Assembly (NCBI RefSeq): GCF_009720245.1
Contig: NZ_WJSQ01000001.1
Span: 1 to 52,401, forward strand
Direction: 5' to 3'
DNA: 52,401 nucleotides
DNA from: Sphingomonas segetis
Lineage (GTDB): Bacteria; Pseudomonadota; Alphaproteobacteria; Sphingomonadales; Sphingomonadaceae
Shown here: positions 11,525-36,069 of the stretch, in pieces
Numbering within the stretch: position 1 is the stretch's first letter
How the letters are laid out: every line of letters begins with the position of its first letter
Translations under genes and position numbers: made by a program
The notes under the pieces: generated by a model
Database searches by the model: none
What the model was told of the DNA's origin: nothing
The model's input: only the letters and a program-made list of their open reading frames with translations

Positions 11525-11576
11525 ACTCTTAATCAGCGGGTCCTAGGTTCGAGCCCTAGTGCGTCCACCATTTTTT
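11525..11576 (+). repeat. attR-like direct repeat (tRNA-Lys 3' half), copy 2
   Basis: Perfect 52-bp copy of 9526-9577. The 5' half of the tRNA is absent, so it is not a functional tRNA. It marks the right end of the mini-island and probably the left boundary of the larger island that follows. Confidence 0.92.
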
Positions 11577-11832
11577 TCAGATACTTGGCGAAAGTCTGAA
11601 ACGTGATCGTGGGGCCGAAGCAAGCACCACGGAAGCACGGAATATCGGTTTCGCACGGCCTGCATTGATTCGTGCGGAGCGGAAGCCTTGGAAAGCTCAC
11701 AACGGTCACTCATGACCAAAGCGTGAAAATGTCATGGGTACACCAGCGGGCAAATGTCTGCCTGCGTGAACCTTACCGGCAAGAACTCATTTTCTGAGGA
11801 ATTCGTCGGGCCATTCCGTATCAGCATAGCTT
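11577..11832. other. Intergenic, left end of the larger island
   Basis: About 255 bp with no convincing ORF, RNA or strong hairpin that I can see. It follows the second att copy and precedes the moeA-like remnant, so it is probably junction DNA. Confidence 0.4.
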
Positions 11833-11883
11833 ATGATCAGCTTCGATGAGGCGATTGAGCTCGTCGACGTCCTGGATTTCTAG
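11833..11883 (+). pseudogene. Possible moeA N-terminal remnant
   Basis: A 16-codon frame, MISFDEAIELVDVLDF then TAG, resembles the start of molybdopterin molybdotransferase MoeA (M-x-S/P-FDEAL...). It points at the 3' end of mobA and stops abruptly, as if the rest were deleted. A molybdenum-cofactor gene next to mobA in a nitrate-reductase island makes sense, but 16 residues could match by chance. Confidence 0.3.
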
Positions 11884-12458
11884 GTGATCCGCTTCTCTGC
11901 CTCGGCGAGATCGTCCGCGGAATTGATGTTGAAGAAGGGATCCTTCTGACCGGCGGCCCATTCGACCTCGATCGCGCCGACCAGCGCCGAAAAGCCCTTC
12001 AGCGACCGGCCTCCGCTCAAAACATAATCATCGACTTTCTCGAGCGTCGACGCGCGCCACAAGCCGCACACCGGATGCGCATGCCCGCCGCTGCTCGCGA
12101 TCGCGCAGCCGAAGTCCTCGATTGCGGCACGGAGACGGTCGAGCAGGTCGGGCGGCAGGAACGGCATGTCGGCGGGGATGGTGAGCAGGAAAGGATAGCC
12201 TTTGGTGCGGACAAACTTCAGGCCCGCTGCGAGTCCACCAAACGGCCCTTCGACGGCGTCGTCCTGGACAATCTCGGCATTCACCGATGGGGCCTGCGCG
12301 AAATCGCGGACCGCAACCGCAACGACGTTCGACCAGCATTGAGCGCGATCGAGTGCCCAGTTGATGAGCCGCCTTTTCCCGAGCTGGCGCAGCGGCTTTG
12401 CGCCGCCGATGCGCCGCCCCTCGCCGCCAGCGAGTATAACCACCGCAACGTCCGTCAC
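11880..12458 (-). CDS. mobA: Molybdenum cofactor guanylyltransferase MobA
   Basis: 192 aa, typical length. The nucleotidyltransferase loop LAGGEGRRIGGAKPL is near residue 8, the metal-binding TIPADMPFLP near the middle, and FFNINSADDL near the end. MobA attaches GMP to molybdopterin to form MGD, the cofactor of NarG. The GTG start at 12458 overlaps the stop of the upstream permease gene (GTGA); a longer frame would run into that gene. Confidence 0.9.
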   Translation of the reverse strand: MTDVAVVILAGGEGRRIGGAKPLRQLGKRRLINWALDRAQCWSNVVAVAVRDFAQAPSVNAEIVQDDAVEGPFGGLAAGLKFVRTKGYPFLLTIPADMPFLPPDLLDRLRAAIEDFGCAIASSGGHAHPVCGLWRASTLEKVDDYVLSGGRSLKGFSALVGAIEVEWAAGQKDPFFNINSADDLAEAEKRIT

Positions 12459-13195
12459 GTGAACAGCAACTTCGCGCCGGCCACCGCCAACACCGCTCCA
12501 AGCGTCCTCAGCAGCCATGGGCGGGGCAGCCGCTCGACGCCGAGCCAGGTTCCGAGCAGCGCGCCGGTGAAAACCGACCCCAGGAATATCGGGAGCTCAT
12601 GCGGCAGGCGACCGACCGACGCCGCGTTTCCCGCGAGACCGGCCGCCGAATTGAGTAAGATGAACGCGGCTACCACGCCGGAGGTGCGCCTCGGTTCTTC
12701 CCAGGCGTTGAGAATGACAAGGGGACTGAGGAAGATTCCGCCGCCGGTTCCAGTCAGCCCCGCCAACAAGCCGAGGACTCCCCCGGCAGGTAATGTGACC
12801 CAGTAGGACGGCGCGCGAACTTCGCGCTCGGCAAGGAACTTCGGCTGCCACAGGAGCCGCAGCGAGCCCAGCCAGAGCAAGATTCCGATCAGCGGTTTAT
12901 AATAGATTGCTGGCAAGTGGATTCCGCCACCGACGAACGCGGCCGGAAAGGCGGTCAGCGCGAAAGCTCCCAGCAGCTTCCAGTTGGTCAGCCCCCGGGT
13001 CCAGTACCGCCACGTGCCGAAGCCGGCGACGAGCAGATTCAGCGCCAGCGCCGTCGGCTTCATCGTCTCCGGCGCGACCGAGAACAGCGCCATCGCGGCG
13101 ATATAGGCCGACGCGCCGCCGTGGCCGACGGACGAGTAAAGCGTCGCGCCAAGTGCAAACAGCAGCGCCAATGCAAGAACTGTGGTCGAGTCCAT
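12455..13195 (-). CDS. TauE/SafE (TSUP) family membrane permease
   Basis: 246 aa with seven to eight membrane helices and two TSUP-type repeats (YSSVGHGGASAYIA and LAGLTGTGGGIFLSPLV). The family exports or imports sulfite, sulfoacetate or other small anions; the substrate here is unknown. It lies between the FNR-type regulator (46 bp) and mobA (GTGA overlap) on the same strand. TauE-like genes often sit in nitrate-reductase clusters, but the role is not settled. Confidence 0.85.
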   Translation of the reverse strand: MDSTTVLALALLFALGATLYSSVGHGGASAYIAAMALFSVAPETMKPTALALNLLVAGFGTWRYWTRGLTNWKLLGAFALTAFPAAFVGGGIHLPAIYYKPLIGILLWLGSLRLLWQPKFLAEREVRAPSYWVTLPAGGVLGLLAGLTGTGGGIFLSPLVILNAWEEPRRTSGVVAAFILLNSAAGLAGNAASVGRLPHELPIFLGSVFTGALLGTWLGVERLPRPWLLRTLGAVLAVAGAKLLFT

Positions 13196-13241
13196 GGCCG
13201 GTTCTAATGCGTTTGTTCCGTCGACGGAAAATGCTCGACGG

Positions 13242-13976
13242 TCAGGCCCCGGATGCAGCCAGTAGCTCGAGACGCCGAAGCTCGAGGATCTCGATCTGGT
13301 GGACCGAGCAGAGACGGATCAGGTGATCCCGCCGGAAGCTGGACAGGACCCGGCTCACCGTTTCCTTTGTCAGGCCGAGATAGTCGGCGATATCAGACCG
13401 GCTCATCGGCAACTGCACCATGGTGCCGACCGAGTCCGAAGTGCCGGCGGCCCGCCCGGCGAGGACGATGAGGAAGGTCGCGAGCCGCTCGATCGCCGTC
13501 TTACGCCCGAGAAGCATCATCTGCTGATGCGCCGAAGCGAGCTCGTGCGCGGCCATTCGATAGAGCTCACGCTCCATTGGCGAATGATCCTCGACGAAGC
13601 CGTCGAAACGGGTTCTTGGGAACCAGCACAATTGGGATGCCTCGACCGCCTCGGCGCTGAACACATGCTCGTCGTCCATGCTGATTCCCAGGAAATCTCC
13701 GGGGGAGACGAAACCGGCGACGTGACACCGGCCATCGGCGAGCAGGTTGTAAAGCTTCAGCGTGCCCGTGGTCAGGGTAAACACGCGCGAGACGGGATCG
13801 CCCTCGTGGAACAGCACCTGGCCGGAGCTGAGCCTGACCGTCCTTCCAAGACTCTTGAAACTGGTTAGGTCAGCGCAGTCCAGCACGCCGCAGACAGCCT
13901 TGTCCCGAACTTTACAGCCCGCGCACGGGTGGTCGGCGGGGAGATCTTCAAGATGACGTTTTGCAGGCGTAAGCAT
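13242..13976 (-). CDS. fnr: Crp/Fnr-family oxygen-responsive regulator (FnrN/FnrL type)
   Basis: 244 aa. The N-terminus has the cluster-binding Cys pattern C18-x2-C21-x7-C29, plus C34, with a central Cys at about 117 as the likely fourth ligand of an oxygen-labile [4Fe-4S]. A cyclic-nucleotide-type beta-roll follows, then an HTH whose recognition helix KETVSRVLSS carries the E..SR residues that read TTGAT half-sites. ATG at 13976 has GGAGAGGA upstream; a GTG 30 bp earlier is less likely. Matching TTGAT-N4-ATCAA-like boxes stand before narG, moaA/hemN and nrdJ/TDT, so it probably activates the island's genes when oxygen is low. Confidence 0.92.
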   Translation of the reverse strand: MLTPAKRHLEDLPADHPCAGCKVRDKAVCGVLDCADLTSFKSLGRTVRLSSGQVLFHEGDPVSRVFTLTTGTLKLYNLLADGRCHVAGFVSPGDFLGISMDDEHVFSAEAVEASQLCWFPRTRFDGFVEDHSPMERELYRMAAHELASAHQQMMLLGRKTAIERLATFLIVLAGRAAGTSDSVGTMVQLPMSRSDIADYLGLTKETVSRVLSSFRRDHLIRLCSVHQIEILELRRLELLAASGA

Positions 13977-14000
13977 GCGACCGTCCTCTCCGGTGACGTG

Positions 14001-14020
14001 GATCACCTGATAAGGTGATC
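14001..14020. promoter_or_regulatory. Perfect palindrome upstream of the fnr-type gene
   Basis: GATCACCT-GATA-AGGTGATC, 8-bp perfect arms, 25-44 bp upstream of the regulator's start and downstream of the preceding gene. It does not fit the FNR consensus. It could be an operator for another regulator or a small hairpin in the leader. Confidence 0.4.
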
Positions 14021-14048
14021 TGGCTCACTCCGGCATAAGGAGAGTCCC

Positions 14049-15157: not shown

Positions 15158-15158
15158 C

Positions 15159-15932
15159 TCAAGCCGCCTTTTTCCGGCGCACGGGTGCGGGGCTAAGAAC
15201 CGGCCGCGCGACATATGGCGGAAGGTCCTCATCGGCTTCCCGGGCGACCGCGCGGCGTTTGGTCCGAACCACCTGGTAACGGCGCGCGAGATAGCCGAGC
15301 GGAACGCTCCACACGTGCACCAGCCGGGTAAACGGGAAGATCAGGAAGATCGTGAAGCCGAGGAACATGTGCAGCTTGAAGACCAGCGGCACGCCCGCGA
15401 TCAGCTCCGGCTGCGGGTTCAGGACGACGATACCCTGAACATAATTCATGAATTGCACCATCATGTGCCCGTCCAGGTGGCCGAGGCTCAGCGGGATGGT
15501 TGCCATTCCGAGCGACAGCTGAGCGAACAGGAGCAAAAGCACGGCGATGTCGCTGACGCTCGAGGTCTTGCGGATCCGGCTGTCGAACAGACGGCGGTGG
15601 AGAAGCATCACCAGCCCGATGAAGCAAGCGGTGCCGCAGACGCCTCCGACGACGATCGCCATCATTTGCTTGAACGAGTGGCTTATGCCGAGGAACTCGA
15701 AAATGACGACAGGAGTCAAAAGGCCGACCGCATGGCCGCCCAAAATCCCGAGGATTCCGACGTGGAACAGGATCGAGCCCCACACGAGCTCCTTGCGGCG
15801 GAGGAACTGGCTCGACTTCGATTTCCAGCCGTACTGGTCAGTGTCGAACCGAACGAGGCTGCCGATAAGGAAAATCGAAAGCGCAATGTACGGGTAGACG
15901 CCGAACGCGGCGGTGTTGAGGGAATCCTGCAT
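15159..15932 (-). CDS. narI: Respiratory nitrate reductase gamma subunit (cytochrome b)
   Basis: 257 aa with five membrane helices. Haem-ligand histidines are visible in HVGILGILGGHAVGL (two His nine apart) and in the last helix (LHMFLGF...RLVH). NarI takes electrons from quinol in the inner membrane and passes them to NarH. Starts 2 bp after narJ. The C-terminal tail of about 40 residues is basic and longer than in E. coli. Confidence 0.95.
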   Translation of the reverse strand: MQDSLNTAAFGVYPYIALSIFLIGSLVRFDTDQYGWKSKSSQFLRRKELVWGSILFHVGILGILGGHAVGLLTPVVIFEFLGISHSFKQMMAIVVGGVCGTACFIGLVMLLHRRLFDSRIRKTSSVSDIAVLLLLFAQLSLGMATIPLSLGHLDGHMMVQFMNYVQGIVVLNPQPELIAGVPLVFKLHMFLGFTIFLIFPFTRLVHVWSVPLGYLARRYQVVRTKRRAVAREADEDLPPYVARPVLSPAPVRRKKAA

Positions 15933-15934
15933 TC

Positions 15935-16627
15935 CTACGCTCCCGCTCTCGCCAGTTGGGCCGCTCGACTGCGAACGGAGTCACCCGAATAGGAGCAATC
16001 CTTAAGCGCCGACCCGGCGGTGAAATCGACAGGGTCCTCGGCCCATTCGCGGTCGAGCTCCTGGAGGTCCTTCGGGTCCTCGGGCTCGCTGGCCAGGATC
16101 GCTTCCACTTCCGCATCATCGGCCTCACGGTGCGCGAGCGTTACCAGCGCTCCGAGCAGAGCGGCATAAGTAGAATGCCGCTCTTCCAGGCGGATTCTCA
16201 GCGCCTCGATAATCTCGATCGCGTCCGTCAGGTAGCGGCGCGCGTGGACTTCCGGAATCACGCTCAGGAATTCGAGAAAGAGAGGCAGATAGTCCGGCAT
16301 CTCGGCCGCATCCAGCTCGAACCCGTTCATCCGGTAGATCAGCGCAAGATTGACCATCGCCTGGCCGCGATCGCGACTCTCCCCATGGCTGTGCTCGTAA
16401 AGGTGGAGCGCCAGCCGCTTGGAGCGGTCGAACAGGCCGATCCAATATTCCTGCGCATCCATGATATCGCTCCGACGCAGCCGCTCGATGAAGACGTTCA
16501 CACCCTCCAGCTCAGCGGCCGGGATCGCCCGCTCCTCGCCGATCGCCTGCTCGACCTCGTCGAGCGCCGACTGAAGTTCGGGCGTCGGATAATCGAGCAG
16601 CGCTCCAAGCGCTTTCAGCGTAATCAT
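15935..16627 (-). CDS. narJ: Nitrate reductase assembly chaperone NarJ
   Basis: 230 aa, helical, with the TorD/NarJ-family segment YRMNGFELDAAEMPDYLPLF and an early LGALLDYPTPELQ. NarJ binds apo-NarG and helps insert the Mo cofactor; it is not part of the final enzyme. ATG overlaps the narH stop (ATGA), showing coupling. Confidence 0.94.
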   Translation of the reverse strand: MITLKALGALLDYPTPELQSALDEVEQAIGEERAIPAAELEGVNVFIERLRRSDIMDAQEYWIGLFDRSKRLALHLYEHSHGESRDRGQAMVNLALIYRMNGFELDAAEMPDYLPLFLEFLSVIPEVHARRYLTDAIEIIEALRIRLEERHSTYAALLGALVTLAHREADDAEVEAILASEPEDPKDLQELDREWAEDPVDFTAGSALKDCSYSGDSVRSRAAQLARAGA

Positions 16628-18165
16628 GCCGCCCTCTGCTTCTTGCCTGGGATCGGAACATGGCCCGGCTTCTTTGGCGAGCCGAAGAGGCTCGGTTCGG
16701 TCCGTCCGCCGCCGCTGCAGCCGTTGCCGAAGCTGAAGCCGCAGCCGCCGCGGATTTCGTGCGCGTTCTCGCTGACCTCGCGGTGCGAGGTCGGGATCAC
16801 GAACCGATCCTCGTAATCGGCGAGCGCGAGGTAACGGTACATTTCGTCGACCTGCGTTTGGCTGAGCCCGGCTTGATCCAGAACCGCCATGTTGGCGCGC
16901 CCGTCGACTTCGCGATCGCGCATGTGGATTCGCATCGCAAACATCTTCTTGAGCGCGTCGACGACGGGCTCTTCCTTGCCGGCAGTCAGCAGGTTGGCGA
17001 GATATTTCACAGGCACGCGGAGCTTGGCGATGTCCGGAATCTCGCCGTCGAAACCGATGTGGCCGCGTTCGGCGACATTCTGGATCGGCGACAGCGGCGG
17101 CACGTACCAGACCATCGGCAGGGTCCGGTACTCAGGGTGGAGCGGGAAGGCGATCTTCCACTCCATCGCCATCTTCCAGATCGGCGACAGCTTCGCCGCT
17201 TCCAACCAGTTATCGGCAATGCCGTCGAGCTTCGCCTGGGCGATCACTTCGGGGTCATTGGGATCGAGGAAGATCTCGAGCTGCTTTTCGTAAAGGTCCT
17301 GCTCGTCCTCTGTCGACGCAACCTCCTCGATGCGGTCGGCGTCGTAGAGTATGACCCCGAGATAGCGGATGCGCCCGACGCACGTTTCCGCGCAGACCGT
17401 CGGCAAGCCGGCTTCGACGCGGGGGTAGCAGAAGATGCACTTTTCGGCCTTCCCGCTTTTCCAGTTGTAGTAGATCTTCTTGTACGGGCAGCCGGAGATG
17501 CACATCCGCCAGCCGCGGCACTTGTCCTGGTCGATGAGGACGATCCCGTCCTCCTCGCGCTTGTAGATCGATCCTGACGGGCAGGCCGCGACGCAGGTCG
17601 GGTTGAGGCAGTGCTCGCACAGCCTCGGCAGATAGAACATGAAGGTCTTCTCGAACTGGCCGTAAACCTCCTTCTCGATGTCGGCGAAGTTCGAATCCTT
17701 CGACCGTTTCGAAAATTCACCGCCGAGGATTTCCTCCCAGTTCGGGCCCCATTGGATCTTCTCCATCCGCTCGTCCGTGATCAGCGAGCGCGGCCGCGCG
17801 GTCGGGAAGGTCTTCATCTCCGGCGCCGATTGCAGATGGTCGTAGTCGAAGGTGAAGGGCTCGTAATAATCGTCGATCTCCGGAAGGTCCGGATTGGCGA
17901 AGATGTTGGCCAACACCCGCCAGCGAGCGCCAATGCGCGGCTCGATCTTGCCGTCCTTCTTGCGCCGCCAGCCGCCGTTCCACTTCTTCTGGTTTTCCCA
18001 TTCCTTGGGGAAACCGATCCCGGGCTTGGTCTCGACGTTGTTGAACCAGGCGTATTCGACGCCTTCTCGGCTGGTCCACACGTTCTTGCAGGTGACCGAG
18101 CAGGTGTGACAGCCGATGCACTTGTCGAGGTTGAGGACCATGGCAACCTGAGCGCGAACTTTCAT
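16624..18165 (-). CDS. narH: Respiratory nitrate reductase beta subunit (Fe-S)
   Basis: 513 aa, normal length. Four Cys clusters are visible: CIGCHTCSVTCKNVW, CEHCLNPTCVAACPSG, CRGWRMCISGCPYKK (Trp in place of one Cys, the NarH [3Fe-4S] hallmark) and CIFCYPRVEAGLPTVCAETC. It relays electrons from NarI to NarG on the cytoplasmic side. ATG at 18165 follows GAGGAG; 13 bp separate it from narG. Confidence 0.96.
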   Translation of the reverse strand: MKVRAQVAMVLNLDKCIGCHTCSVTCKNVWTSREGVEYAWFNNVETKPGIGFPKEWENQKKWNGGWRRKKDGKIEPRIGARWRVLANIFANPDLPEIDDYYEPFTFDYDHLQSAPEMKTFPTARPRSLITDERMEKIQWGPNWEEILGGEFSKRSKDSNFADIEKEVYGQFEKTFMFYLPRLCEHCLNPTCVAACPSGSIYKREEDGIVLIDQDKCRGWRMCISGCPYKKIYYNWKSGKAEKCIFCYPRVEAGLPTVCAETCVGRIRYLGVILYDADRIEEVASTEDEQDLYEKQLEIFLDPNDPEVIAQAKLDGIADNWLEAAKLSPIWKMAMEWKIAFPLHPEYRTLPMVWYVPPLSPIQNVAERGHIGFDGEIPDIAKLRVPVKYLANLLTAGKEEPVVDALKKMFAMRIHMRDREVDGRANMAVLDQAGLSQTQVDEMYRYLALADYEDRFVIPTSHREVSENAHEIRGGCGFSFGNGCSGGGRTEPSLFGSPKKPGHVPIPGKKQRAA

Positions 18166-18178
18166 GACTCGATACTCC

Positions 18179-21100
18179 TCAGGCGGCCGCAACCGGCTCA
18201 GCCGGCTCGTCCATCCAGTCGACCTTGCTCATCTTGCGAAGCACCACGAACTCGTCACGGTTGGAGCCGACGGTTCCGTAGTAATTGAAGCCGTAGGCCT
18301 GGTGCGCGTAGCCGCCGATCATGTGCGTCGGCTTGACGATCGCGCGCGTCACGCTGTTGTGAATCCCGCCGCGCATGCCGGTGATCTCCGACCCCGGCAC
18401 GTTCACGATCTTTTCCTGAGCGTGATACATCATGCACATGCCGGACGGGACGCGCTGGCTCACCACGGCGCGGGCGTTCAGGGCGCCGTTGACGTTGAAT
18501 GCCTCGATCCAGTCATTGTCCTCGATCCCGACGCGTTTCGCGTCTTCCTCGCTGATCCACACGACCGGCCCGCCGCGATTGAGCGTGAGCATCATGAGAT
18601 TGTCGGAATAGGTCGAGTGGATGCCCCACTTCTGGTGGGGCGTAATGAAATTCAGCACCAACTCGCCATTGCCGTTGCCGCGCTTGCCCAGCACCGGCTC
18701 GATGGCCTTGGTGTCGATCGGCGGCTTGTAGGTGGTGAAGCCCTCGCCGAACGCGCGCATCCACGGGTGGTCCTGGTAAAGCTGCTGTCGACCGGTGAGG
18801 GTTCGCCACGGGATCAGCTCGTGAACGTTCGTCCAGCCAGCGTTGTAGCTGATCGTCTCGCTTTCGATCCCTGACCAGGTGGGTGAAGAGATGATCTTGC
18901 GCGGCTGCGCCTGGACGTCGCGAAAGCGAATCTTCTCGTCCTCGCGGGCACTCGCGAGATGCGCGTGCCCGCGACCGGTGAACTCCGATAACGCTTTCCA
19001 CGCCTTCACCGCGACTTCGCCGTTGGTCTCCGGCGCTAGGCTCAGGATCATTTCGCAGGCGTCGATGTCGGTGTCGATCTTAGGCCGTCCGTCTTCATCC
19101 TTGCCGTTCAGTGCGGCCAGGAAATCGACCTCATGGTCGGTGTTCCAGCTGATCCCCTTGCCGCCATTGCCGAGCTTCATGAGCAGCGGCCCGATCGAGG
19201 TGAAGCGCTTATAGGTCTCCGGATAGTCGCGCTCGACGGTCACGACTGCCGGCATCGTCTTGCCGGGCAGCGGGTCGCATTCGCCCTTCTTCCAGTCCTT
19301 GACGTCGAGCGGCTGGCCGAGCTCGCCGGGCGTGTCATGCTGCAGCGGGACGAGCACCACGTCGGTTTCTTTGCCAAGGTGGCCTTGGCAAACTTCCGAA
19401 AAGCTCTTCGCGATTCCCTTGAAGATCTCCCAGTCGCTGCGCGCGCCCCAAGCCGGGTCCACCGCTTTCGACAGCGGGTGGATGAACGGGTGCATGTCGG
19501 ACGTATTTAGGTCGTTCTTCTCGTACCAGGTGGCGGTGGGAAGGACGACGTCGGCATAGACCGCGGTCGTCGACATCCGGAAGTCGATCGCCACGAGCAG
19601 GTCGAGCTTCCCTTCCGGCGCTACGTCGTGGAACACGACTTCGTCCGGCCGCTGCCCGCCGTCTTCGCCCAGATCTTTCCCCTGTACGCCATGCTGCGTG
19701 CCGAGCAGGTGCTTAAGGAAATATTCGTGCCCCTTGCCGGACGAGCCGAGCAGGTTCGAGCGCCACACGAATAGATTGCGGGGGAAGTTCTTCGGATTGT
19801 CCGGGTCCTCGCAGCTCATTCGGAGCTTGCCGTTCTTGAGCTCGCGAGCGACCTTCGTAGCGGCGGCCTCGCCCTTCAGCTTGCGGCCGATGTCGAGCGG
19901 GTTGGTTTCGAGCTGCGGTGCCGATGGAAGCCAGCCCATGCGTTCCGCGCGAACATTGAAATCGATGAGCGTTCCCGAAACGTCGATGTCGCTGGTCGGC
20001 GATGCGATCTCATCGGTCGCCAGCTTCTCGTAGCGCCACTGGTCGGAGTGGGCATACCAGTAGCTGGTGCCATTCATGTGCCGCGGCGGCCGGTGCCAGT
20101 CGAGCGCGAATGCAAGGGGAGTCCAGCCGGTCTGCGGGCGAAGCTTCTCTTGCCCGACATAGTGCGACCAGCCGCCGCCCGACTGACCGACGCAGCCGCA
20201 GAACACCAGGAGATTGATGATCCCCCGGTAGGTCATGTCCATGTGGTACCAGTGGTTGAGACCGGCCCCGAGGATGACCATCGACTTACCGTTGGTCTTC
20301 TCGGCGTTGGTGGCGAAATCGCGCGCGGTGGCGATAATCTGGTCGCGCGGCACGCCGGTGATCCTCTCAGCCCAGGCCGGAGTGAACGGCACATCGTCGT
20401 CAAACGAGGCGGCGACATCGCCGCCGAGACCCTGGTCAACGCCGTAGTGCGCGATGATGAGATCGTGGGCGGTGGCCACCAACGCCTCGCCGTCCTGCAA
20501 CTTCAATCGCTTCACCGGCACGTTGCGGCGAAGAACGTCGCCGTGATCCGTACTTGTGAAATAGGGACTCTGCGGGCCTGAACCGAAATAGGGAAAGTCG
20601 ACGCCGACGATTGCTTCCCAACGGTCGGCGAGGCTCAGCGCCAGCTTGACCTCGCGGTCCTTACCGTCGCGCTCCTCGAGGTTCCACTTGCCCTTTTCGC
20701 CCCAGCGGAAGCCGATCGAGCCCAACGGAGTGACGATCTCGCCGCTGGTCTCGTCGATCGCAACGGTCTTCCATTCGGGATTGTTGGCCTCGTCGAGCGA
20801 ACCGTCGAAATCGGACGCGCGGACGAAGCGCTCGGGGACATAGCCGTCGCCGCGCTTCACCAACCGGACAAGCATCGGCATGTCGGAATATTTGCGGCAA
20901 TAATCGCGGAAATATTGGGCCTGCCGGTCGACGTGATATTCCTTGAGCACGACATGACCGAGCGCCATTGCAAGCGCGCTGTCGGTGCCCTGCTTGGGCG
21001 CCATCCACAGGTCGGCGAATTTTGACGCTTCGGAATAGTCGGGGCAGACCACGACCGACTTCGCGCCCTTGTAACGGACCTCGGTGTAGAAGTGCGCGTC

Positions 21101-21892
21101 GGGGGTGCGGGTCTGGGGGACGTTCGAGCCCCACAGCATCAGGAAAGTCGAATTGTACCAGTCGGCGCTTTCCGGAACGTCGGTTTGCTCGCCCCAGGTC
21201 TGCGGGCTGGACGGCGGAAGATCGCAATACCAGTCGTAGAAGCTGAGGCAGACTCCGCCGATCAGCGACAAATACCGTGCGCCGGCCGCGTAGCTGACCA
21301 TCGACATGGCCGGGATCGGCGAGAAGCCCGCGACACGGTCGGGCCCGTAGGTCTCCGTCGTATAGACGTTGGCGGCGGCGATGATCTCGTTCGCTTCGTC
21401 CCAGGTGACGCGGACGAAGCCGCCCATGCCGCGCGCCTTCTTGTAGCGGGCAGCATATTCCGGGGTTTCGACGATGGTCTTCCACGCTTCGACCGCGTCG
21501 GCGCTTTCCGCGCGCACGGTCCGCCACAGCTTGACCAGCTTCTTGCGGATCATCGGGTGCTTGACGCGGTTCGCGCTGTACAAATACCAGCTGTAGCTGG
21601 CGCCGCGCGCGCAGCCGCGCGGCTCATGGTTGGGAAGGCCCGGCCGGGTGCGAGGGTAATCGGTCTGCTGGGTTTCCCAAGTGACGATTCCGTCCTTGAC
21701 GTAGATCTTCCACGAGCAGCTTCCGGTGCAATTCACGCCGTGGGTCGAGCGGACGATCTTGTCGTGGCTCCAGCGGCCGCGATAGCCGTCCTCCCAGCTG
21801 CGGTCCTCGTTGGTGACGACCCCGTGGCCGTTCGAGAAGGTGCCTACGTTCTTCCTGAGGAACGTCAGCCGGTCGAGAAAGTGGCTCATCAA
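18179..21892 (-). CDS. narG: Respiratory nitrate reductase alpha subunit (Mo-bisMGD)
   Basis: 1,237 aa (1,236 if the second Met is used). N-terminal STHGVNCTGSCSWKIY holds the His/Cys ligands of the FS0 cluster, and the Asp ligand to Mo is expected in the YNSTFLMLWGSNVPQTRTPD segment. The molybdopterin-binding domains run to the end with GGGWSHYVGQEKLRPQTGW in the middle. It reduces nitrate to nitrite in the cytoplasm. An FNR-like box lies about 60 bp upstream. First gene of narGHJI-ppiC-unknown. Confidence 0.97.
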   Translation of the reverse strand: MMSHFLDRLTFLRKNVGTFSNGHGVVTNEDRSWEDGYRGRWSHDKIVRSTHGVNCTGSCSWKIYVKDGIVTWETQQTDYPRTRPGLPNHEPRGCARGASYSWYLYSANRVKHPMIRKKLVKLWRTVRAESADAVEAWKTIVETPEYAARYKKARGMGGFVRVTWDEANEIIAAANVYTTETYGPDRVAGFSPIPAMSMVSYAAGARYLSLIGGVCLSFYDWYCDLPPSSPQTWGEQTDVPESADWYNSTFLMLWGSNVPQTRTPDAHFYTEVRYKGAKSVVVCPDYSEASKFADLWMAPKQGTDSALAMALGHVVLKEYHVDRQAQYFRDYCRKYSDMPMLVRLVKRGDGYVPERFVRASDFDGSLDEANNPEWKTVAIDETSGEIVTPLGSIGFRWGEKGKWNLEERDGKDREVKLALSLADRWEAIVGVDFPYFGSGPQSPYFTSTDHGDVLRRNVPVKRLKLQDGEALVATAHDLIIAHYGVDQGLGGDVAASFDDDVPFTPAWAERITGVPRDQIIATARDFATNAEKTNGKSMVILGAGLNHWYHMDMTYRGIINLLVFCGCVGQSGGGWSHYVGQEKLRPQTGWTPLAFALDWHRPPRHMNGTSYWYAHSDQWRYEKLATDEIASPTSDIDVSGTLIDFNVRAERMGWLPSAPQLETNPLDIGRKLKGEAAATKVARELKNGKLRMSCEDPDNPKNFPRNLFVWRSNLLGSSGKGHEYFLKHLLGTQHGVQGKDLGEDGGQRPDEVVFHDVAPEGKLDLLVAIDFRMSTTAVYADVVLPTATWYEKNDLNTSDMHPFIHPLSKAVDPAWGARSDWEIFKGIAKSFSEVCQGHLGKETDVVLVPLQHDTPGELGQPLDVKDWKKGECDPLPGKTMPAVVTVERDYPETYKRFTSIGPLLMKLGNGGKGISWNTDHEVDFLAALNGKDEDGRPKIDTDIDACEMILSLAPETNGEVAVKAWKALSEFTGRGHAHLASAREDEKIRFRDVQAQPRKIISSPTWSGIESETISYNAGWTNVHELIPWRTLTGRQQLYQDHPWMRAFGEGFTTYKPPIDTKAIEPVLGKRGNGNGELVLNFITPHQKWGIHSTYSDNLMMLTLNRGGPVVWISEEDAKRVGIEDNDWIEAFNVNGALNARAVVSQRVPSGMCMMYHAQEKIVNVPGSEITGMRGGIHNSVTRAIVKPTHMIGGYAHQAYGFNYYGTVGSNRDEFVVLRKMSKVDWMDEPAEPVAAA

Positions 21893-21943
21893 AATCCCCG
21901 GAATGTGCCGCGCCGCCGTCGAACAAGTCGGTCGTGTCGGCCA

Positions 21944-21957: not shown

Positions 21958-22027
21958 GGTTCGCAATGCAGATGCGGTGGCCGCGGGAGAATACGGAATA
22001 TCCCTGATGCTCGCCGTGGCGGCGGCG

Positions 22028-26488: not shown

Positions 26489-26489
26489 C

Positions 26490-28700
26490 TCAGCCGCACT
26501 TCGAATAGCCGCACTCGAGGCAGTTGTTGCAGCCCTCAACCTTGACCAGCGCCGACGCCCCGCACTGCGGGCATTGCGGCATCGGCTTGGCGGAAGTCTC
26601 CCTTTCGAACGCCTCCGCCTCGACGGGCCTGTCGCCAACCCCGCTCAGATGCCGCTCGACGATGTCGCCGATCGCCGCGAGCAGCGACGGGACGTAGCGG
26701 CCTTGCATCCACGCGCCGCCGCGCGGGTCGAATACCGCCTTCAACTCCTCGGCTACGAACGCCACATCGGAGCTTCGCCGGAACACCGCGGAAACCATCC
26801 GGGTCAGCCCGAGAGTCCAGGCATAATGTTCCATGTTCTTGGAGTTGATGAACATCTCGAACGGGCGGCGCTGTCCGTCCTCCTCGATATCGTTGATGGT
26901 CACGTAAACCGCGTGCGGGCTCTCCGGCCATTTCAGCTTGTAGGTGGTGCCGTGAAGCTGCTCCGCTCTTGGCTCGAGCACCTCTTCCATTTTCTTAGGC
27001 TTGGTCTCACCGACGCTCAGCACCGATCCCGTCACCGCGTTGGGGCGATAGGTCGTCAGGCCCTTGCAGCCGAGATGGTAGCCTTCGATGTATACGTCGG
27101 CGAAGTCTTCGAAGCTGATGTCCTCGGGGCAGTTGACGGTTTTCGAGATCGAGCTGTCGATCAGCGCCTGCGCCGCCGCCTGCATCGTCAAATGATCGGA
27201 CGGCGACAGCGTCTGGGTGCTGACGAACAAATGCGGTGGTGGCACTGCATCGCCCTTGACCTGTCGCCAGACGCGCATTGCGTAGTCCTCGACCTTCTCC
27301 TCGCGCTTGGTGCCGTCCGGCTGCCGGATCTTACGGCTGTAGGAATATGCGAACACCGGCTCGATGCCCGACGAGACATTGCCGGCAAGCAGCGACGTCG
27401 TTCCGGTCGGAGCGATCGACGTGAGGCAGCCGTTGCGCAGGCCGTGCTCGGCGATGAGCGCGCGCGTCTCTTCGTCCAGCGACAAAAGGTTTGGCCGCTT
27501 GAGCATGGAGGCGTGGTAAAGCGGGAACGGCCCCTTTTCGGCCGCGAGCAGGGCGGAGGCACGATAGGCCTCGCGCTTGATCGTGGCGAGCCATTGCCGC
27601 GTCAGCGTAACCGCTTCGCCGCTACCGTAAGCGACTCCGCAGAACAGAAGCGCGTCGGCTAGCCCCGTGATCCCGAGGCCAAGCCGCCGCTTAGCTTTCG
27701 CTTCCGCCTCCTGCTCCGGCAAGGGATAGCGCGAGATGTCGATGACGTTATCGAGCATCCGCACCGCAGTGCGCGCGAGTTCGCCGAGCTGATCTTCGTC
27801 GAGGAAGGCGCTGTCTTCGAATGGCCGCTCGACAAGGGCCGCGAGATTGATCGAGCCGAGCAGGCAGGCGCCGTACGGAGGAAGCATCTGCTCACCGCAG
27901 GGATTGCTGGCGCTGATCGTCTCGCAATGCGCGAGGTTGTTCTGCGCGTTTACCCGGTCGACGAAGATCACGCCGGGCTCGGCGACGTCGTAAGTCGCGC
28001 GCATCAGCTTCTCCCAAAGCTCGCGGGCGCGCACGATGCGGGCGGTTTCGCCGCCGAACACCAATGGCCAGTCGGAATCGCTTCCGAGCGCCGACATGAA
28101 TGCATCGGTCACCAGCACCGACAGGTTGAAGTTGCGGAAGCGTGCGGGGTCGCGCTTGGCTTCAATGAAGGCCTCGATGTCTGGATGGTCTATCCGCAGG
28201 CACCCCATCATCGCGCCGCGCCGCTGGCCAGCCGAGTGGACGGTTCGGCACATCGAATCCCAGCAGTCCATGAATGTAAGCGGGCCGGACGCGTCGGCGG
28301 CAACGCCCTTGACCGGGCTTCCGCTCGGCCGGATCGTCGAGAAGTCCATTCCGACACCCCCGCCCTGCTGCATGGTCAAGGCCGCCTGCTTCAGGTGCTC
28401 GAAAATCCCGTCGAGGCTGTCCGGGATGGTTCCCATGACGAAGCAGTTGAACAGGGTGACCGCCCGGTCCGTGCCCGCGCCGGCGAGCACTCGGCCGGCC
28501 GGGATGAACCGGAAGTCCTGGATGGCCTCGCGAAAGCTCTGTTCCCATTTGCCTCGGATTTCCAGAGCTTCGGCGGCAGCGACGGCTCTCGCCACTCGCT
28601 CGGCGGTCGCGGCGAAGCTGTCATCGCCCGAGCCTTCGTCGGTCTTGAATCGGTATTTCGCGATCCAGATTTCTTCGGCCAGCGCCACGTCAAAACTCAT
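26490..28700 (-). CDS. nrdJ: Adenosylcobalamin-dependent (class II) ribonucleotide reductase
   Basis: 736 aa. Class II RNR signatures: FNCFVMGTIPDS, QQGGGVGMDFSTIRPSGSPV, SNPCGEQMLPPYGACLLGS with the active-site Cys/Glu, and APTGTTSLLAGNVSSGIEP. The C-terminus ends in a Cys-rich tail (CPQCGA...CNNCLECGYSKCG). It makes dNTPs without oxygen using B12. ATG at 28700 follows GGAGG. Converges on hemN with 1 bp between stops. A palindrome and an FNR-like box lie upstream. Confidence 0.95.
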   Translation of the reverse strand: MSFDVALAEEIWIAKYRFKTDEGSGDDSFAATAERVARAVAAAEALEIRGKWEQSFREAIQDFRFIPAGRVLAGAGTDRAVTLFNCFVMGTIPDSLDGIFEHLKQAALTMQQGGGVGMDFSTIRPSGSPVKGVAADASGPLTFMDCWDSMCRTVHSAGQRRGAMMGCLRIDHPDIEAFIEAKRDPARFRNFNLSVLVTDAFMSALGSDSDWPLVFGGETARIVRARELWEKLMRATYDVAEPGVIFVDRVNAQNNLAHCETISASNPCGEQMLPPYGACLLGSINLAALVERPFEDSAFLDEDQLGELARTAVRMLDNVIDISRYPLPEQEAEAKAKRRLGLGITGLADALLFCGVAYGSGEAVTLTRQWLATIKREAYRASALLAAEKGPFPLYHASMLKRPNLLSLDEETRALIAEHGLRNGCLTSIAPTGTTSLLAGNVSSGIEPVFAYSYSRKIRQPDGTKREEKVEDYAMRVWRQVKGDAVPPPHLFVSTQTLSPSDHLTMQAAAQALIDSSISKTVNCPEDISFEDFADVYIEGYHLGCKGLTTYRPNAVTGSVLSVGETKPKKMEEVLEPRAEQLHGTTYKLKWPESPHAVYVTINDIEEDGQRRPFEMFINSKNMEHYAWTLGLTRMVSAVFRRSSDVAFVAEELKAVFDPRGGAWMQGRYVPSLLAAIGDIVERHLSGVGDRPVEAEAFERETSAKPMPQCPQCGASALVKVEGCNNCLECGYSKCG

Positions 28701-28711
28701 GATTGCCTCCA

Positions 28712-28724
28712 CCACATATTGTGG
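28712..28724. promoter_or_regulatory. Possible NrdR-like palindrome upstream of nrdJ
   Basis: CCACATATTGTGG, a palindrome with 5-bp arms, directly upstream of the nrdJ RBS. It resembles NrdR boxes (CCACA/TGTGG halves) found before RNR genes, but only one clear copy is seen and its position would be within the leader. Confidence 0.35.
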
Positions 28725-28757
28725 GTTGTGGAGTATCCAATCACAAGATGTTCTCGA

Positions 28758-28771
28758 TTGATCCAGATCAT
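28758..28771. promoter_or_regulatory. FNR-like box between nrdJ and the TDT permease gene
   Basis: TTGATCCAGATCAT, one base off TTGAT-N4-ATCAA. Its centre lies 64 bp from the nrdJ start and 52 bp from the ATG chosen for the divergent permease, suiting control of both. Confidence 0.7.
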
Positions 28772-28816
28772 CGACGGAAAAAGATTGCGGCGCGAGCGTG
28801 CGCTCCGTTGTCGATC

Positions 28817-29914
28817 ATGCGCACCATCACGGCAGGAGTTCCGCCTGCCCGACCCTACTTGCTCGCGGCGATCGGTGCAGGCGCGGAAACGCTATTCCCG
28901 GGCTACTTCGCGCTCGTCATGGCGACTTCAGCGGTGTCCATCGCCAGCTTCCTGCTCGGACATTTGCTGGTCGCGCATGCGTTGGTCTATCTCAACTGGC
29001 TGTTCTACCTTTCGCTTTGGGCGCTGACGCTGGTGCGGCTCGTCCGCTTTCCGCGAAAAGTCGTCGACGATTTGTTCGATCACCAGCGGGCGCCGGGATT
29101 CTTCACTTTGGTCGCAGCGACCTGCATGCTTGCGACGCAGACGACCCTCGTTGCCGGCGGCCATGCGATCGGGACCTACCTTTGGTGGTTCGGTCTCTGC
29201 CTGTGGTTCGTGATCATGTATGCCTTCTTCACCGCGGTCACGATCCGGCTGCACAAACCGACCCTGGCCGCCGGAATCAATGGCGCCTGGCTGATCGCCG
29301 CGGTCGCGACGCAATCGATCGTCGTATCGCGCGGCGCCCTCGACGGGCTGAGCGCACCCAGCCCGCCAATCCAGTTCCTGTGCATCGCGATGTTTATGAT
29401 CGGGTGCATGCTCTACCTCGCGATCATCCCGCTCATTTTCTACCGGCTGACGTTCGTGCGGCTCGAGTTGCGCGATTTTTCGCCGCCCTACTGGATCAAC
29501 ATGGGGGCGGTCGCGATCACCACTCTCGCGGGAGCGACGCTGATCCTGCGAATCGGCCACTGGCCGGTGCTGGCCCCGATCGCCCCGTTCCTTCCGGGTT
29601 TTACCGTGTTCTTCTGGGCAGCATCGACTTGGTGGATTCCCTTGCTGATCGCGTTAATGGCCTGGCGCTATGTCATCCGCCGGGACGTGCCCAGCTACGA
29701 GCCGGCGTTGTGGGGAATGGTGTTCCCGCTGGGCATGTACACCACGGCAACGTTCCAGCTGTCGCGAGCTCTCGGCCTCGATTTCCTGGCCGGGGTCTCG
29801 CGAGGCTTCATCGTCTTCGCCCTTGCGGCTTGGCTCGCCGTCTTTCTCGGGTTGCTGCGGCACTTGTGGAAGTGCGCACAGCCGTTGCGCGCCGGGCGCT
29901 TGGCGCTCCGCTGA
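28817..29914 (+). CDS. TDT/TehA-family membrane permease
   Basis: 365 aa with ten hydrophobic helices and the opening PGYFALVMATSAVSIAS typical of the tellurite-resistance/dicarboxylate transporter (TDT) family. Family members move anions such as malate, sulfite or nitrate-like ions; the substrate here is unknown. ATG at 28817 chosen: the frame is open upstream but earlier starts would cover the FNR-like box. An anaerobic anion transporter is a reasonable guess. Confidence 0.82.
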   Translation: MRTITAGVPPARPYLLAAIGAGAETLFPGYFALVMATSAVSIASFLLGHLLVAHALVYLNWLFYLSLWALTLVRLVRFPRKVVDDLFDHQRAPGFFTLVAATCMLATQTTLVAGGHAIGTYLWWFGLCLWFVIMYAFFTAVTIRLHKPTLAAGINGAWLIAAVATQSIVVSRGALDGLSAPSPPIQFLCIAMFMIGCMLYLAIIPLIFYRLTFVRLELRDFSPPYWINMGAVAITTLAGATLILRIGHWPVLAPIAPFLPGFTVFFWAASTWWIPLLIALMAWRYVIRRDVPSYEPALWGMVFPLGMYTTATFQLSRALGLDFLAGVSRGFIVFALAAWLAVFLGLLRHLWKCAQPLRAGRLALR

Positions 29915-30047
29915 AGCCCTTCGGCTTTACGGATGTAGCCGGGATGGCGAACTCCGTAGTCAGAGGCATGGCCTGAAAATGCCAGCAGTCTTGGTTGTTT
30001 CGTCGAGTAAATAATTCCGGGGGGCGAGGCCCTCCGGGCGACGGTTT
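29915..30047. other. Convergent intergenic region
   Basis: 133 bp between the stops of the TDT gene and the rhodanese gene. A weak 5-bp hairpin AAGCC-CTTC-GGCTT overlaps and follows the TDT stop; nothing else is evident. Confidence 0.4.
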
Positions 30048-30425: not shown

Positions 30426-30541
30426 TCTTGTCCTCCTCTCTCTCCTTCGCTTCGCCTGGTGCTCCTGGGTGACCGCGGGGGCCGCTTCAGCGCGCAGGCG
30501 TCGATCTTCACCAACCAATGGCGGGGCCGCGTCTCCAACCC

Positions 30542-31795: not shown

Positions 31796-31913
31796 ATGGG
31801 CATCCCCTCGAGCGTCGGGATATCAGTCTAGGGCCGCGCGCACGAGAGGCGCGGCAGCACCGGCGCCCGTGGCGTCGGCCACGAACCCGCGGCAGACGCA
31901 GCCGTCAGCGCCT

Positions 31914-33253: not shown

Positions 33254-33352
33254 CGTGTCGCGGTTCCCATCACGAGCCCGATCGGAAGACTAAGCTGCCT
33301 GTGAGTGCGGCTCGTTACGCAATGCCCCGTAGGTATTTTTCAGGAACTTGCC

Positions 33353-34366
33353 CTATTGCACATCCGCCGCGGCGGGCTCCTGCACCCTGACTTCATGCAC
33401 TGGCCGGCCCGTGCGCTCGAATGCATCGATGTTCTCGATGGTCGTTGCCGCGATCTCCTGCAGCGCTTCGACCGTGAGAAAGCCTTGATGTCCGGTGATC
33501 AGCACATTGGAAAGGTGAAGCAGCCGCAAAAACTGTTCGTCCGCAATCGGCTCGCCGGAACGATCCTCGAAGAACAGATTGCCCTCGCCTTCATAGACAT
33601 CGATCGCGAGGCCGCCCAAGCGCCAAGCTTCAAGGGCTTCGACGACCGCCCGAGTGTCGATGACCGCCCCGCGACTGGTGTTGATGAGCAATGCTCCGGG
33701 CTTCATCCGCGCGAGCTCGCGGCGGCCAATCAGATGCCGCGTGCTGTCATCGAGCGGACAATGAAGGGTCACAATGTCCGACCGCTCCAGCAGTTCGTCG
33801 AGCTCGACGTAAGCGAGAATGCCGCGGCAATCCTCCCGCCGCACCGGATCACTCCCCAGGACGGTGCAACCAAAACCGCGGGCGATCCCCGCGGCGACCG
33901 ATCCAATGTTGCCGACGCCGACGATCCCGAAGGTCTTACGCGCAAGATCGAAGCCGATCAGTCCATCGAGCGAAAAGTTGCCCTGCCGGATGCGCTGGTA
34001 GGCGATGTGGACCTTGCGATTGAGGCTGAGCAGCAGCGCGAACGCATGCTCGGCCACCGCATTGGGCGAATAGGCGGGAACCCGCGCAATGGTGATGCCG
34101 TGGCCTCGAGCAGCCTTCAGGTCGACATTGTCGAAGCCTGCGCTGCGCAGCGCTATCAGTTCCACGCCCATGTGCGCGAACGCCATCATCGTCGTCGCGC
34201 TCGCCTGGTCGTTGGCGAACAGGCATAGAGCCGACGAGCCTTTCGCGAGCGCGGCGGTCGCGATCGTCAGGCGACAGTCCAGGTATCGCAGCTCGTGCCG
34301 ACCGCGGTTCGCGGCGTCGAGGAACTGCCGATCGTGTGGCTTGCTGCTGAAAACCGCGACCTTCAC
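33353..34366 (-). CDS. ldhA: D-lactate dehydrogenase-like 2-hydroxyacid dehydrogenase
   Basis: 337 aa. Rossmann loop GIVGVGNIGSVAAG, catalytic Arg in NTSRGAVIDT, Glu/Asp in the YEGEGNLFFEDRSGEPI stretch typical of fermentative LdhA, and catalytic His in ITGHQGFLT. It reduces pyruvate to D-lactate with NADH, regenerating NAD+ without oxygen. GTG at 34366, 11 bp after the UspA gene, so probably co-transcribed. Confidence 0.88.
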   Translation of the reverse strand: MKVAVFSSKPHDRQFLDAANRGRHELRYLDCRLTIATAALAKGSSALCLFANDQASATTMMAFAHMGVELIALRSAGFDNVDLKAARGHGITIARVPAYSPNAVAEHAFALLLSLNRKVHIAYQRIRQGNFSLDGLIGFDLARKTFGIVGVGNIGSVAAGIARGFGCTVLGSDPVRREDCRGILAYVELDELLERSDIVTLHCPLDDSTRHLIGRRELARMKPGALLINTSRGAVIDTRAVVEALEAWRLGGLAIDVYEGEGNLFFEDRSGEPIADEQFLRLLHLSNVLITGHQGFLTVEALQEIAATTIENIDAFERTGRPVHEVRVQEPAAADVQ

Positions 34367-34377
34367 CGCTGCATCCC

Positions 34378-35262
34378 CTACCGCGTGAGGAAAAGCGGCA
34401 CAGTGCACCTCTTGAGCAATGACCGGGTTACTCCTCCAAACAGGAACTCGCCCGCCCGGCTGTGACTGTAGCCGCCCATCACGATGTAACTCGCGCCATC
34501 GATCGCAGCCTGGTCGAGGATCTCCTGCTCCACTGTTTCCATGATGCGCGGTCGCTCCGACAATTCCGCATGAACTCCGTGCCGCGACAGATATTCGAGG
34601 CCAGCTGTTGACGGGAATTGCCGCTCCTTCGCCTCCTCGACGGCGACCAGCCGCACTTGCGAGGCGACTTTCAGCAGCGGGATCGCGGCGCGCAATGCGT
34701 TCGCGGCTTCGTGGCTGCCGTCCCAGGCGACGATTGCAGGCCCGAACGGATCGATCGCTGAAGCGTCGTCGCCGACGACAAGAAGCGGCGTCCCGAGGCT
34801 TTGCAGCAAGTTGCCGAGGAATGCGATCGAGGGTCCTCCGAACTCCCGCTCATGCGGCTGCCGGCCGGTGACAACCATGTCGGCGAGTGCGGCTCGGTGA
34901 ATGAGGTTCCGCATCAATTCGCCGGTCACATCTTCGTAACCCCAGCTGACGTCCTCGTTCGCGAGCTGCTGTTGCAGTTTCTCGCGCAGCTTCGCGGATT
35001 CGTCCTCCAGTACGGCCATGATCTGCGGGCTGACAAAAACGCTGAACGCGTCAGTGACCGTATATGCTTCGATGGGCGTGACATGCAGGAGATGGAGATG
35101 CGCCCCGAACGCCCTGGCGATCGACAGCGCAACTTCGATCCGGTTCCCCAGGCCGTCGTCATTATGAACATGGAAGAGGATCGTCTTGATCCCCGGCGGA
35201 GTCATTGCCGATTTCAGGATCGGCTTTGACGACTGCTCCATCACCGATTGGGCGCTTTGCAT
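34378..35262 (-). CDS. Universal stress protein with two UspA domains
   Basis: 294 aa. Two tandem UspA domains: the first begins IKTILFHVHNDDGLGNRIE, the second begins AIVAWDGSHEAANALRAA and ends with the ATP-loop-like VMGGYSHSRAGEFLFGGVT. ATG at 35262 follows AGGAG. Such proteins often belong to FNR-type regulons. First gene of the usp-ldhA pair. Confidence 0.9.
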   Translation of the reverse strand: MQSAQSVMEQSSKPILKSAMTPPGIKTILFHVHNDDGLGNRIEVALSIARAFGAHLHLLHVTPIEAYTVTDAFSVFVSPQIMAVLEDESAKLREKLQQQLANEDVSWGYEDVTGELMRNLIHRAALADMVVTGRQPHEREFGGPSIAFLGNLLQSLGTPLLVVGDDASAIDPFGPAIVAWDGSHEAANALRAAIPLLKVASQVRLVAVEEAKERQFPSTAGLEYLSRHGVHAELSERPRIMETVEQEILDQAAIDGASYIVMGGYSHSRAGEFLFGGVTRSLLKRCTVPLFLTR

Positions 35263-35401
35263 GTTCGTTCTCCTGCCATTGCTGGACCTTCGCCAGCGCG
35301 AATGCGATAATCGGCCATTCCGAGGGCCTGCGAGAATCAGGAGATTCACCTAAGGTCGCTGGAGGGAGCGGCTGGTATTTCGGGCGGAGCAGGAGATTCG
35401 G

Positions 35402-35911
35402 ATGGAACAGAAAGCCATCGATATTCTCGGGCAGCACCGCCTGATGGCGCTCGCGACCGTCCGGCCGGACGGATGGCCTCAGGCGACGATGGTCAGCTAT
35501 GCGAATGATGGGCTGCTCCTCTACTTCGTGATCTCACGCGGCAGTCAGAAGTTCGCCAATATCGAGAATGACGATCGCGTTTCGATCGTCATCGGCCAGG
35601 ACTTCCATGACCCCTCGACAATAACCGCGCTGTCGATTGCGGCGCACGCTTCCGAAATCAGGGACGCCGCGCAGCGCAAGGAGGCAATCCGCATGCTTCT
35701 CGAACGGCATCCGGGCCTGCGGAAGCTGGAGCGGCCGAAACCATCACATTCAGTTGTCATGCGCGCATATCCGGCGATCGTGACGATTCTCGATTATTCA
35801 AAAGGGTTTGGCCACGCTGACGTTCTCACAGTTTCGCCTGGCGGCGTCGCAATGACGCCCGCCCGCGATGACGACTGGGGGTTCGGTTCGGAGCTCAAGC
35901 CGATATCCTGA
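35402..35911 (+). CDS. Pyridoxamine 5'-phosphate oxidase (PPOX)-fold protein
   Basis: 169 aa. The split-barrel flavin-binding core is seen as LMALATVRPDGWPQATMVSY and LLLYFVISRGSQKFANIEND. The family binds FMN or F420 and includes small oxidoreductases of unknown substrate. Divergent from the UspA gene (139 bp). Last gene before the diverged tRNA repeat. Confidence 0.85.
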   Translation: MEQKAIDILGQHRLMALATVRPDGWPQATMVSYANDGLLLYFVISRGSQKFANIENDDRVSIVIGQDFHDPSTITALSIAAHASEIRDAAQRKEAIRMLLERHPGLRKLERPKPSHSVVMRAYPAIVTILDYSKGFGHADVLTVSPGGVAMTPARDDDWGFGSELKPIS

Positions 35912-36018
35912 CTCAAACGGTTCCGAGCACCGGTCCACAAGAACGGCGGCATGGACTTCGAGCGGCCCGAACTGCGCTCGGTACAATTAGCAGCGATGCG
36001 CTGCGATGTTCGAAGATA

Positions 36019-36069
36019 TGACTCTTAATCGGCAGGTCCCAGGTTCGAGCCCTAATGCGTCCACCATTT
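36019..36069 (+). repeat. Diverged tRNA-Lys 3' repeat, copy 3 (distal att)
   Basis: 51 bp matching the tRNA-Lys 3' part, from TGACTCTTAATC through CCACCATTT, with four substitutions. The upstream half of a tRNA is missing, so it is not a tRNA gene. Its distance (24.5 kb) and content in between suggest the far end of an older island. Confidence 0.85.

Follow-up and report, generated by a model that had tools for sequence, protein, structure and literature searches.

Downstream of rodA in Sphingomonas segetis, a tRNA-Lys(CTT) gene is followed on the same strand by two further copies of its own 3′ part, and genes for nitrate respiration lie between the second and the third copy. Here, this arrangement is analysed in a stretch of 52,401 nt (assembly GCF_009720245.1, a draft of 328 contigs; contig NZ_WJSQ01000001.1, positions 1-52,401), which we call the window. 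Comparisons were made with a genus set of 71 genomes, the window included, and with a family set of 249 genomes. Our preferred reading, with a probability of roughly 0.72, is that two genomic islands sit head to tail at this one tRNA gene: an older island with the nar genes and a younger mini-island, both lacking an integrase.

The left flank is formed by rodA (8282-9397, forward strand), and a tRNA-Lys was found in 25 of the 30 rodA loci looked at. The sole tRNA called by ARAGORN in the window is tRNA-Lys(CTT) at 9496-9571 (forward strand), the proposed attachment gene, whose 3′ part is the repeated core. A second copy of the 3′ end, unchanged, is found at 11525-11573 and a third, diverged one at 36019-36069, both on the forward strand. 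The repeated segment extends from the anticodon stem to just past the CCA, and the tRNA 5′ half is missing at the two downstream copies. In a repeat search of the window this three-copy family (9505/11504/36000) ranks first. The 51-mer at 9524-9574 was also scored for mismatches at every window position on both strands, which gave 0 mismatches at 9524, 2 at 11523 and 4 at 36019. Both mismatches at 11523 occur in the first two bases, leaving 49 bp identical from 11525, while the changes at 36019 (A>G, G>A, T>C, G>A) are all transitions. A preliminary description of this DNA, made from the letters alone, had reported a 51-bp match with four changes at 36019; it is confirmed, as the next-best site has 25 mismatches (forward strand; 26 on the reverse strand). 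Furthermore, 300 shuffled 51-mers never came below 20 mismatches to the window. These figures, the absence of the 5′ half and the presence of the core at the same junction in another genome (G041, see below) leave next to nothing of the idea that chance or the decay of a tRNA gene produced the third repeat, an idea for which its four changes and the single tRNA call could be cited.

Islands borne by tRNA genes carry a direct repeat of the tRNA 3′ part at their far end, and such a repeat is present in the window. The copy at 11525 would be the right end of the mini-island and the left end of the older island, and the copy at 36019 the distal boundary of the latter.

The older island (11574-36018) starts with mobA, tauE, a gene for an FNR-like regulator, ppiC, narI, narJ, narH, narG and a narK-like gene, as assigned with Pfam and NCBIfam. 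Its middle part comprises a CMD-like gene (carboxymuconolactone-decarboxylase family), moaA, hemN, nrdJ and genes for a SLAC1-family channel and a rhodanese. Genes for MgtC/DUF4010, an L,D-transpeptidase, a D-2-hydroxyacid dehydrogenase, Usp and a PNPOx-like protein make up the rest. The narIJHG genes (15159-21892, reverse strand; TIGR00351, TIGR00684, TIGR01660 and TIGR01580) and nrdJ (26490-28715, reverse strand; TIGR02504), encoding an adenosylcobalamin-dependent (class II) ribonucleotide reductase, score above the curated NCBIfam cut-offs, as do MoaA and HemN; MobA, NarK and the FNR-like regulator fall below theirs. The SLAC1-family channel gene is at 28703-29914 (forward strand, Pfam). 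An overlapping frame of 392 aa (28798-29976), which has no family, was rejected as a gene in favour of the SLAC1 frame. The preliminary description had the two outer repeats enclose nearly all anaerobic genes and nothing else. The first half is borne out for narIJHG, moaA, hemN, the class II ribonucleotide reductase and the mobA-, narK- and FNR-like genes. The second half is wrong: L,D-transpeptidase, MgtC/DUF4010, PNPOx-like, rhodanese, SLAC1, TauE, PpiC and CMD-family genes lie inside as well.

The GC content of the nar island is 0.627, compared with 0.668 and 0.653 in the flanks and 0.54 in the mini-island. It is even (0.615-0.649) from 12 to 36 kb and steps from 0.615 to 0.674 at the 36019 copy; some of the right flank is no richer in GC than the nar island, and values return to 0.62-0.64 from 44 kb on.

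The right flank (36070-39769) consists of genes for a sulfotransferase (36090-36962), a glycosyltransferase (36948-38282) and an asparagine synthase (37835-39769). Homologous flanks were found in three genomes, G041, G056 and G024. In G041, a contig of 3,180 bases carries a partial asparagine synthase gene, the glycosyltransferase and the sulfotransferase genes and then a core copy. Its homology to the window starts at 36022, the first core base, and continues outward for 3,060 bp at 77%. The boundary is thus a sharp one, and this supports the view that the original 3′ end of the tRNA gene was displaced and is now the 36019 copy. In G056 (83% complete, no narG candidate, rodA 89% identical to that of the window), the core is followed by 17 bp and then by a match from window position 36961, which places the glycosyltransferase gene at most 50 bp from the tRNA (junction in L062). 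The content of 9575-36960, including the sulfotransferase gene, is absent there; a 71% copy of the latter lies near the end of another contig. A search of genome contigs with the sulfotransferase gene gave no relative. In G024, which has no narG at the threshold used for the genus (E <= 1e-200), 14.6 kb of other genes separate tRNA-Lys from a sulfotransferase gene with one stop codon. By eye, this filler (L052) includes enzymes of sugar metabolism (aldolase-like). For sphingomonads without nar genes, the preliminary description had predicted a collapse from tRNA-Lys to the sulfotransferase gene, which was seen in no genome examined. G056 bears out part of the prediction, joining the tRNA to the next gene, that of the glycosyltransferase; the sulfotransferase gene is missing there too.

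The landing site was also looked at across the genus. In the 71 genomes, rodA is present in 69, and a degenerate core pattern (<=3 mismatches) matches 67, with two or three copies in 16, the window included; the reversed pattern, our control, gave 0. The tRNA-Lys locus is thus an insertion hotspot. The tRNA 5′ side is absent from 19 distinct core copies. Most of the displayed ones begin to match at CTCTTAATC and have differing bases before it, which locates the crossover at the anticodon loop or adjacent to it. A TGA before CTCTTAATC is kept in the 36019 copy of the window and in one copy each of G026 and G070. Extra copies on other contigs or far away from the tRNA occur in G029, G041, G044 and G055. 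The genes that follow tRNA-Lys vary widely, and conserved downstream sets are common to ~10 genomes at most (47 of 48 regions compared; the G037 stretch is without the tRNA). A viral contig, IMGVR_UViG_3300010375_000003 (62,991 bases), has an exact core copy in each of two stretches (L284, L289), a pattern as expected for a prophage using the tRNA-Lys site.

Rows of three tRNA-Lys 3′-end copies were also found in G051 (L060, L131) and G026 (L067, L130), with no nar gene match between the copies. One concern is that the repeats of 45-51 bp caused a misjoin in the contig, since assemblies readily go wrong at repeats and the genome is a draft of 328 contigs. Yet like junctions recur in G041, in G020 (8 contigs) and in the single-contig genomes G026 and G051, which makes an assembly artefact very improbable.

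Thirteen of the 71 genomes of the genus carry narG, and three of them (the window, G020 and G003) have it close to rodA and tRNA-Lys, identically oriented. In G020, the nar block is bounded by tRNA-Lys (C3:192457) and a distal copy (C3:153935), an interval of 38.5 kb, and its order, mobA-tauE-FNR-ppiC-narIJHG-narK-moaA-hemN-nrdJ, is that of the window. Some 150 bp inside the distal repeat is the start of a gene for a tyrosine integrase, recognised by its Arm-DNA-bind_3 and Phage_integrase domains. An integrase-bearing nar island is therefore present at the same tRNA in a relative. Among the matches listed, relatives of this integrase start ~140 bp inside distal repeats in G026 (34% identity) and G044 (79% over 80 residues, at a contig end). 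Related integrases (30-37% identity) are likewise found ~140-240 bp from exact core copies on the IMG/VR contigs L285, L287 and L288. An integrase of the G020 type probably acted in the lineage of the window too.

Repeats were searched around the nar blocks of 11 genomes; the remaining two of the 13, G013 and G035, have a split or partial narG and were left out. The state of narG in these two (L042, L043, L044) suggests decay or assembly errors. Genes resembling moaC and moeA (named by eye) precede the block on the mobA side in nine of the 11 (G002, G009, G012, G020, G026, G029, G030, G040 and G051). The window and G003 have mobA as the first gene of the block, with a core copy next to it. Outside mobA, the left junctions of these two show little alignment and the window is longer by ~250 bp, so that a common left junction is no more than suggested.

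Could the nar block simply have stood beside tRNA-Lys in the ancestor of the clade and been lost in most descendants, the repeats being later small insertions? The locus and orientation shared by three of the 13 nar genomes would fit. However, G056, a close relative by its rodA (89%), has a joined site without nar, the diverged copy lies beyond the nar genes and not before them, and the trees of block genes disagree with that of rodA. Vertical inheritance is hence an unlikely account.

Those trees were built for the same 11 nar genomes (10 for tauE) and include partial sequences (nrdJ of G003 and G030, moaA of G040, tauE of G009 and G040). The window groups with G003 in the nrdJ, moaA and tauE trees (support 0.975, 0.960 and 0.996), with G020 and G026 in the rodA tree (0.993), and with G051 in the narG and narH trees (1.000). 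For narG, the window shares 88% identity with G051 and 69-70% with each of the nine others compared; for rodA, its identity to G051 is 67%. The best 80 of 592 narG-matching stretches in a search of genome contigs have 68-75% identity, all below the 88% of G051, and NarG on plasmids (173 records) reaches 74% at best. Because trees and identities disagree, the block has most likely moved between lineages, with at least one exchange of the nar core, which would give it a mosaic and horizontal history.

This mosaic also lends itself to another explanation, in which the 36019 repeat is the scar of an unrelated element at this hotspot and the nar block came in through homologous recombination or out of a resident chromosomal locus, so that the 24.5 kb was never one unit. 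The different nearest relatives of narGH and of the other block genes agree with it, as do the nar blocks that stand elsewhere in the genus without repeats (in the eight genomes examined). Moreover, nothing like the genes at 30-36 kb adjoins nar in the relatives examined, the exceptions being G026, with a YkuD-like gene, and G009 and G012, with a weak match to the D-2-hydroxyacid dehydrogenase. On the other hand, the G020 block lies in a repeat-bounded, integrase-bearing interval at the same tRNA, the blocks of the window and G003 both begin at mobA next to a repeat copy, and the GC content is even from 12 to 36 kb. We regard an unrelated scar as tenable yet less likely. The readings weighed in this text overlap, and their likelihoods, that of the preferred one included, do not sum to one.

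With two successive insertions at one tRNA gene, the relative age of the elements can be addressed. At a tRNA site, the newest element is normally nearest the tRNA and the displaced 3′ end is free to drift. The near copy (11525) has 0 changes and the far copy (36019) has 4. With equal rates and equal times, the probability that all four changes fall in the far copy is 1/16, and this divergence alone is weak evidence of age. A further indication comes from the flanks. To the right of 11573, TTTTTTTCAGATACTTGGCG fits the motif TCA-N2-6-ACTT(A/G), which is found within 32 bp of 14 of 78 distinct core copies (those with >=30 bp of flank and only bases allowed by the pattern); shuffled flanks gave a mean of 0.3 and at most 3 in 500 shuffles. 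It is located beside 8 of 59 tRNA copies and 6 of 19 distal copies, and not beside the 36019 copy. We read the motif as a probable end of integrated elements, which fits an older element starting there.

From these observations the following course of events may be proposed. An element with the anaerobic-respiration block would have recombined with the 3′ half of the tRNA gene, the crossover being in or beside the anticodon loop. The tRNA would thereby have exchanged its 3′ half for a new one, the original being displaced, together with its flank, to 36019. No longer needed, the displaced copy would have drifted by four transitions, and the older element would have lost its integrase. Later, an integrase-less element of 2 kb would have entered at this site, moving the end that belonged to the older island to 11525. 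Its movement was presumably catalysed by an integrase acting from elsewhere. The preliminary description had likewise proposed an older 24.5-kb island joined by a later mini-island in a tandem composite. The G041 junction, the GC step at the 36019 copy, the G020 island, the flank motif and the drifted far copy speak for this reading. Entry in one event finds no such support, narGH and the rest of the block having different nearest relatives, and whether the whole 24.5 kb arrived together may be doubted.

The mini-island (9575-11524) has a GC content of 0.54 and two open reading frames (ORFs) of 380 and 214 aa, neither with a significant Pfam, PHROG or PADLOC match; no integrase was found in it. 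A TraQ match in the 214-aa ORF (E 0.73) is not significant, and a plasmid search gave no match to the mini-island. The 380-aa protein (9597-10739) contains R-N-I-Y-T-H, which we take, by eye, to fit the HEPN nuclease motif. Cargo for defence, without a family match, would be only a guess. Five exact AACGTAGGG sites were counted where 0.08 would be expected; all are close to the two ends of the mini-island (9622-9680 and 11396-11416) and may be integrase arm sites. The pair AACGTAGGG-N1-8-AACGTAGGG occurs in the window only, among the 71 congeneric genomes, and in one further genome of the family set (G212), where the reversed control also had one match (G159). In G212, an unrelated ORF has the pair at its end, and a transposase-like ORF precedes it. 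Eleven viral stretches have the pair in or beside other ORFs (L272 and L277 share one proline-repeat gene). No tyrosine integrase was seen beside it by eye in the first 150 residues of each ORF, and tblastn of three integrases against these stretches found none; L280 has a serine-recombinase-like ORF near the pair. The arm-type sites were dropped as a key to the integrase of the mini-island, since the pair elsewhere leads to no tyrosine integrase.

Several findings weigh against two islands in tandem. Neither an integrase nor a convincing remnant of one was found in the window, either by Pfam in the ORFs scanned or by tblastn with three integrases, whose best match (E 0.012) lies inside moaA. 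The segment is consequently an integrase-less remnant or a non-autonomous member, and not a complete island. The order of the repeats rests on one contig of a 328-contig assembly, and several of the enclosed genes are not anaerobic. The flank motif was chosen after the flanks had been viewed, and its count is descriptive. Furthermore, 10 of the 13 narG genomes carry narG elsewhere, on the same contig as rodA but 86 kb or more away from it. In eight of these, the 50-67 kb around the block held no repeat-like site with <=17 mismatches, and the nar block is therefore not dependent on the tRNA-Lys site. The preliminary description had seen a difficulty in nar genes at this locus without the repeat, and G003 goes part of the way: its left copy is diverged (10 mismatches in 48, mostly at the 5′ end) and no right copy was found at <=17 mismatches in the 96.3 kb examined. 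G024 has no distal copy with <=12 mismatches, and tRNA-Lys directly adjoins the sulfotransferase gene in none of the genomes examined. The cluster of glycosyltransferase and asparagine synthase genes follows the tRNA only in G024 and G056 (47 regions), apart from the separate G041 contig; the right flank is thus not the usual neighbour in the genus and may itself be an earlier arrival. Lastly, the mosaic history argues for mobility but against a single intact arrival.

As to the class of element, attachment (att) sites at both ends without integration or transfer genes define a cis-mobilizable element, and this is what was found among the ORFs scanned. No relaxase or transfer family, as expected of integrative conjugative or integrative mobilizable elements, was recognised among the ORFs scanned with Pfam. 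A broader picture is conceivable, though we hold it with little confidence. The nar module might circulate as interchangeable cassettes at one tRNA-Lys(CTT) site, brought by tyrosine-integrase islands, left att-bounded after loss of the integrase, its narGHJI core exchanged between lineages, and picked up again by later elements including mini-islands with arm-type sites of their own.

Tandem islands at an RNA gene are a known type. In Dehalococcoides, tandem ssrA islands are described, including one for vinyl chloride respiration, 15 of them without an integration module, proposed to be possibly cis-mobilizable and to grow by accretion (PMC3146451). The resemblance lies in respiration genes arranged in a row downstream of an RNA gene, with direct repeats of its 3′ end. 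However, Dehalococcoides uses tmRNA, a serine recombinase and organohalide respiration (PMC3146451), whereas here we find tRNA-Lys, a tyrosine integrase in relatives, nitrate respiration and only two islands. Closer in taxonomy, Sphingopyxis granuli TFA has a cluster likewise of the narGHJI type, with a transporter gene and an FtrB-like regulator, which is not in the other Sphingopyxis compared and was suggested to be acquired; the portion of the report at hand gives no tRNA boundary for it (PMC4741004). The nitrate respiration conjugative element (NCE) of Thermus thermophilus, as far as its accounts go, also places nitrate respiration with its own oxygen-responsive regulation in a mobile region. 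It belongs to another phylum and is called conjugative, while here the ORFs scanned include no recognisable transfer gene. CGI48 of Shewanella putrefaciens, in tRNA-Trp, is described as a composite island at a tRNA gene too; there one island carries another, whereas here the islands lie head to tail. In the titles and abstract beginnings of the open-access papers searched, no tRNA-Lys nar island of a sphingomonad was found. The tRNA-borne tandem island is thus a known type, of which the tRNA-Lys nar island described here is a new example.

The window offers a concrete case of the gain of nitrate respiration in a genus most of whose members lack nar genes (narG in 13 of 71 genomes). It brings together a defined landing site, one relative that retains an integrase, another, near one in which the site is joined, and a repeat whose drift puts the two insertions in order. 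The boundaries of an island are recoverable here even where the recombinase is gone.

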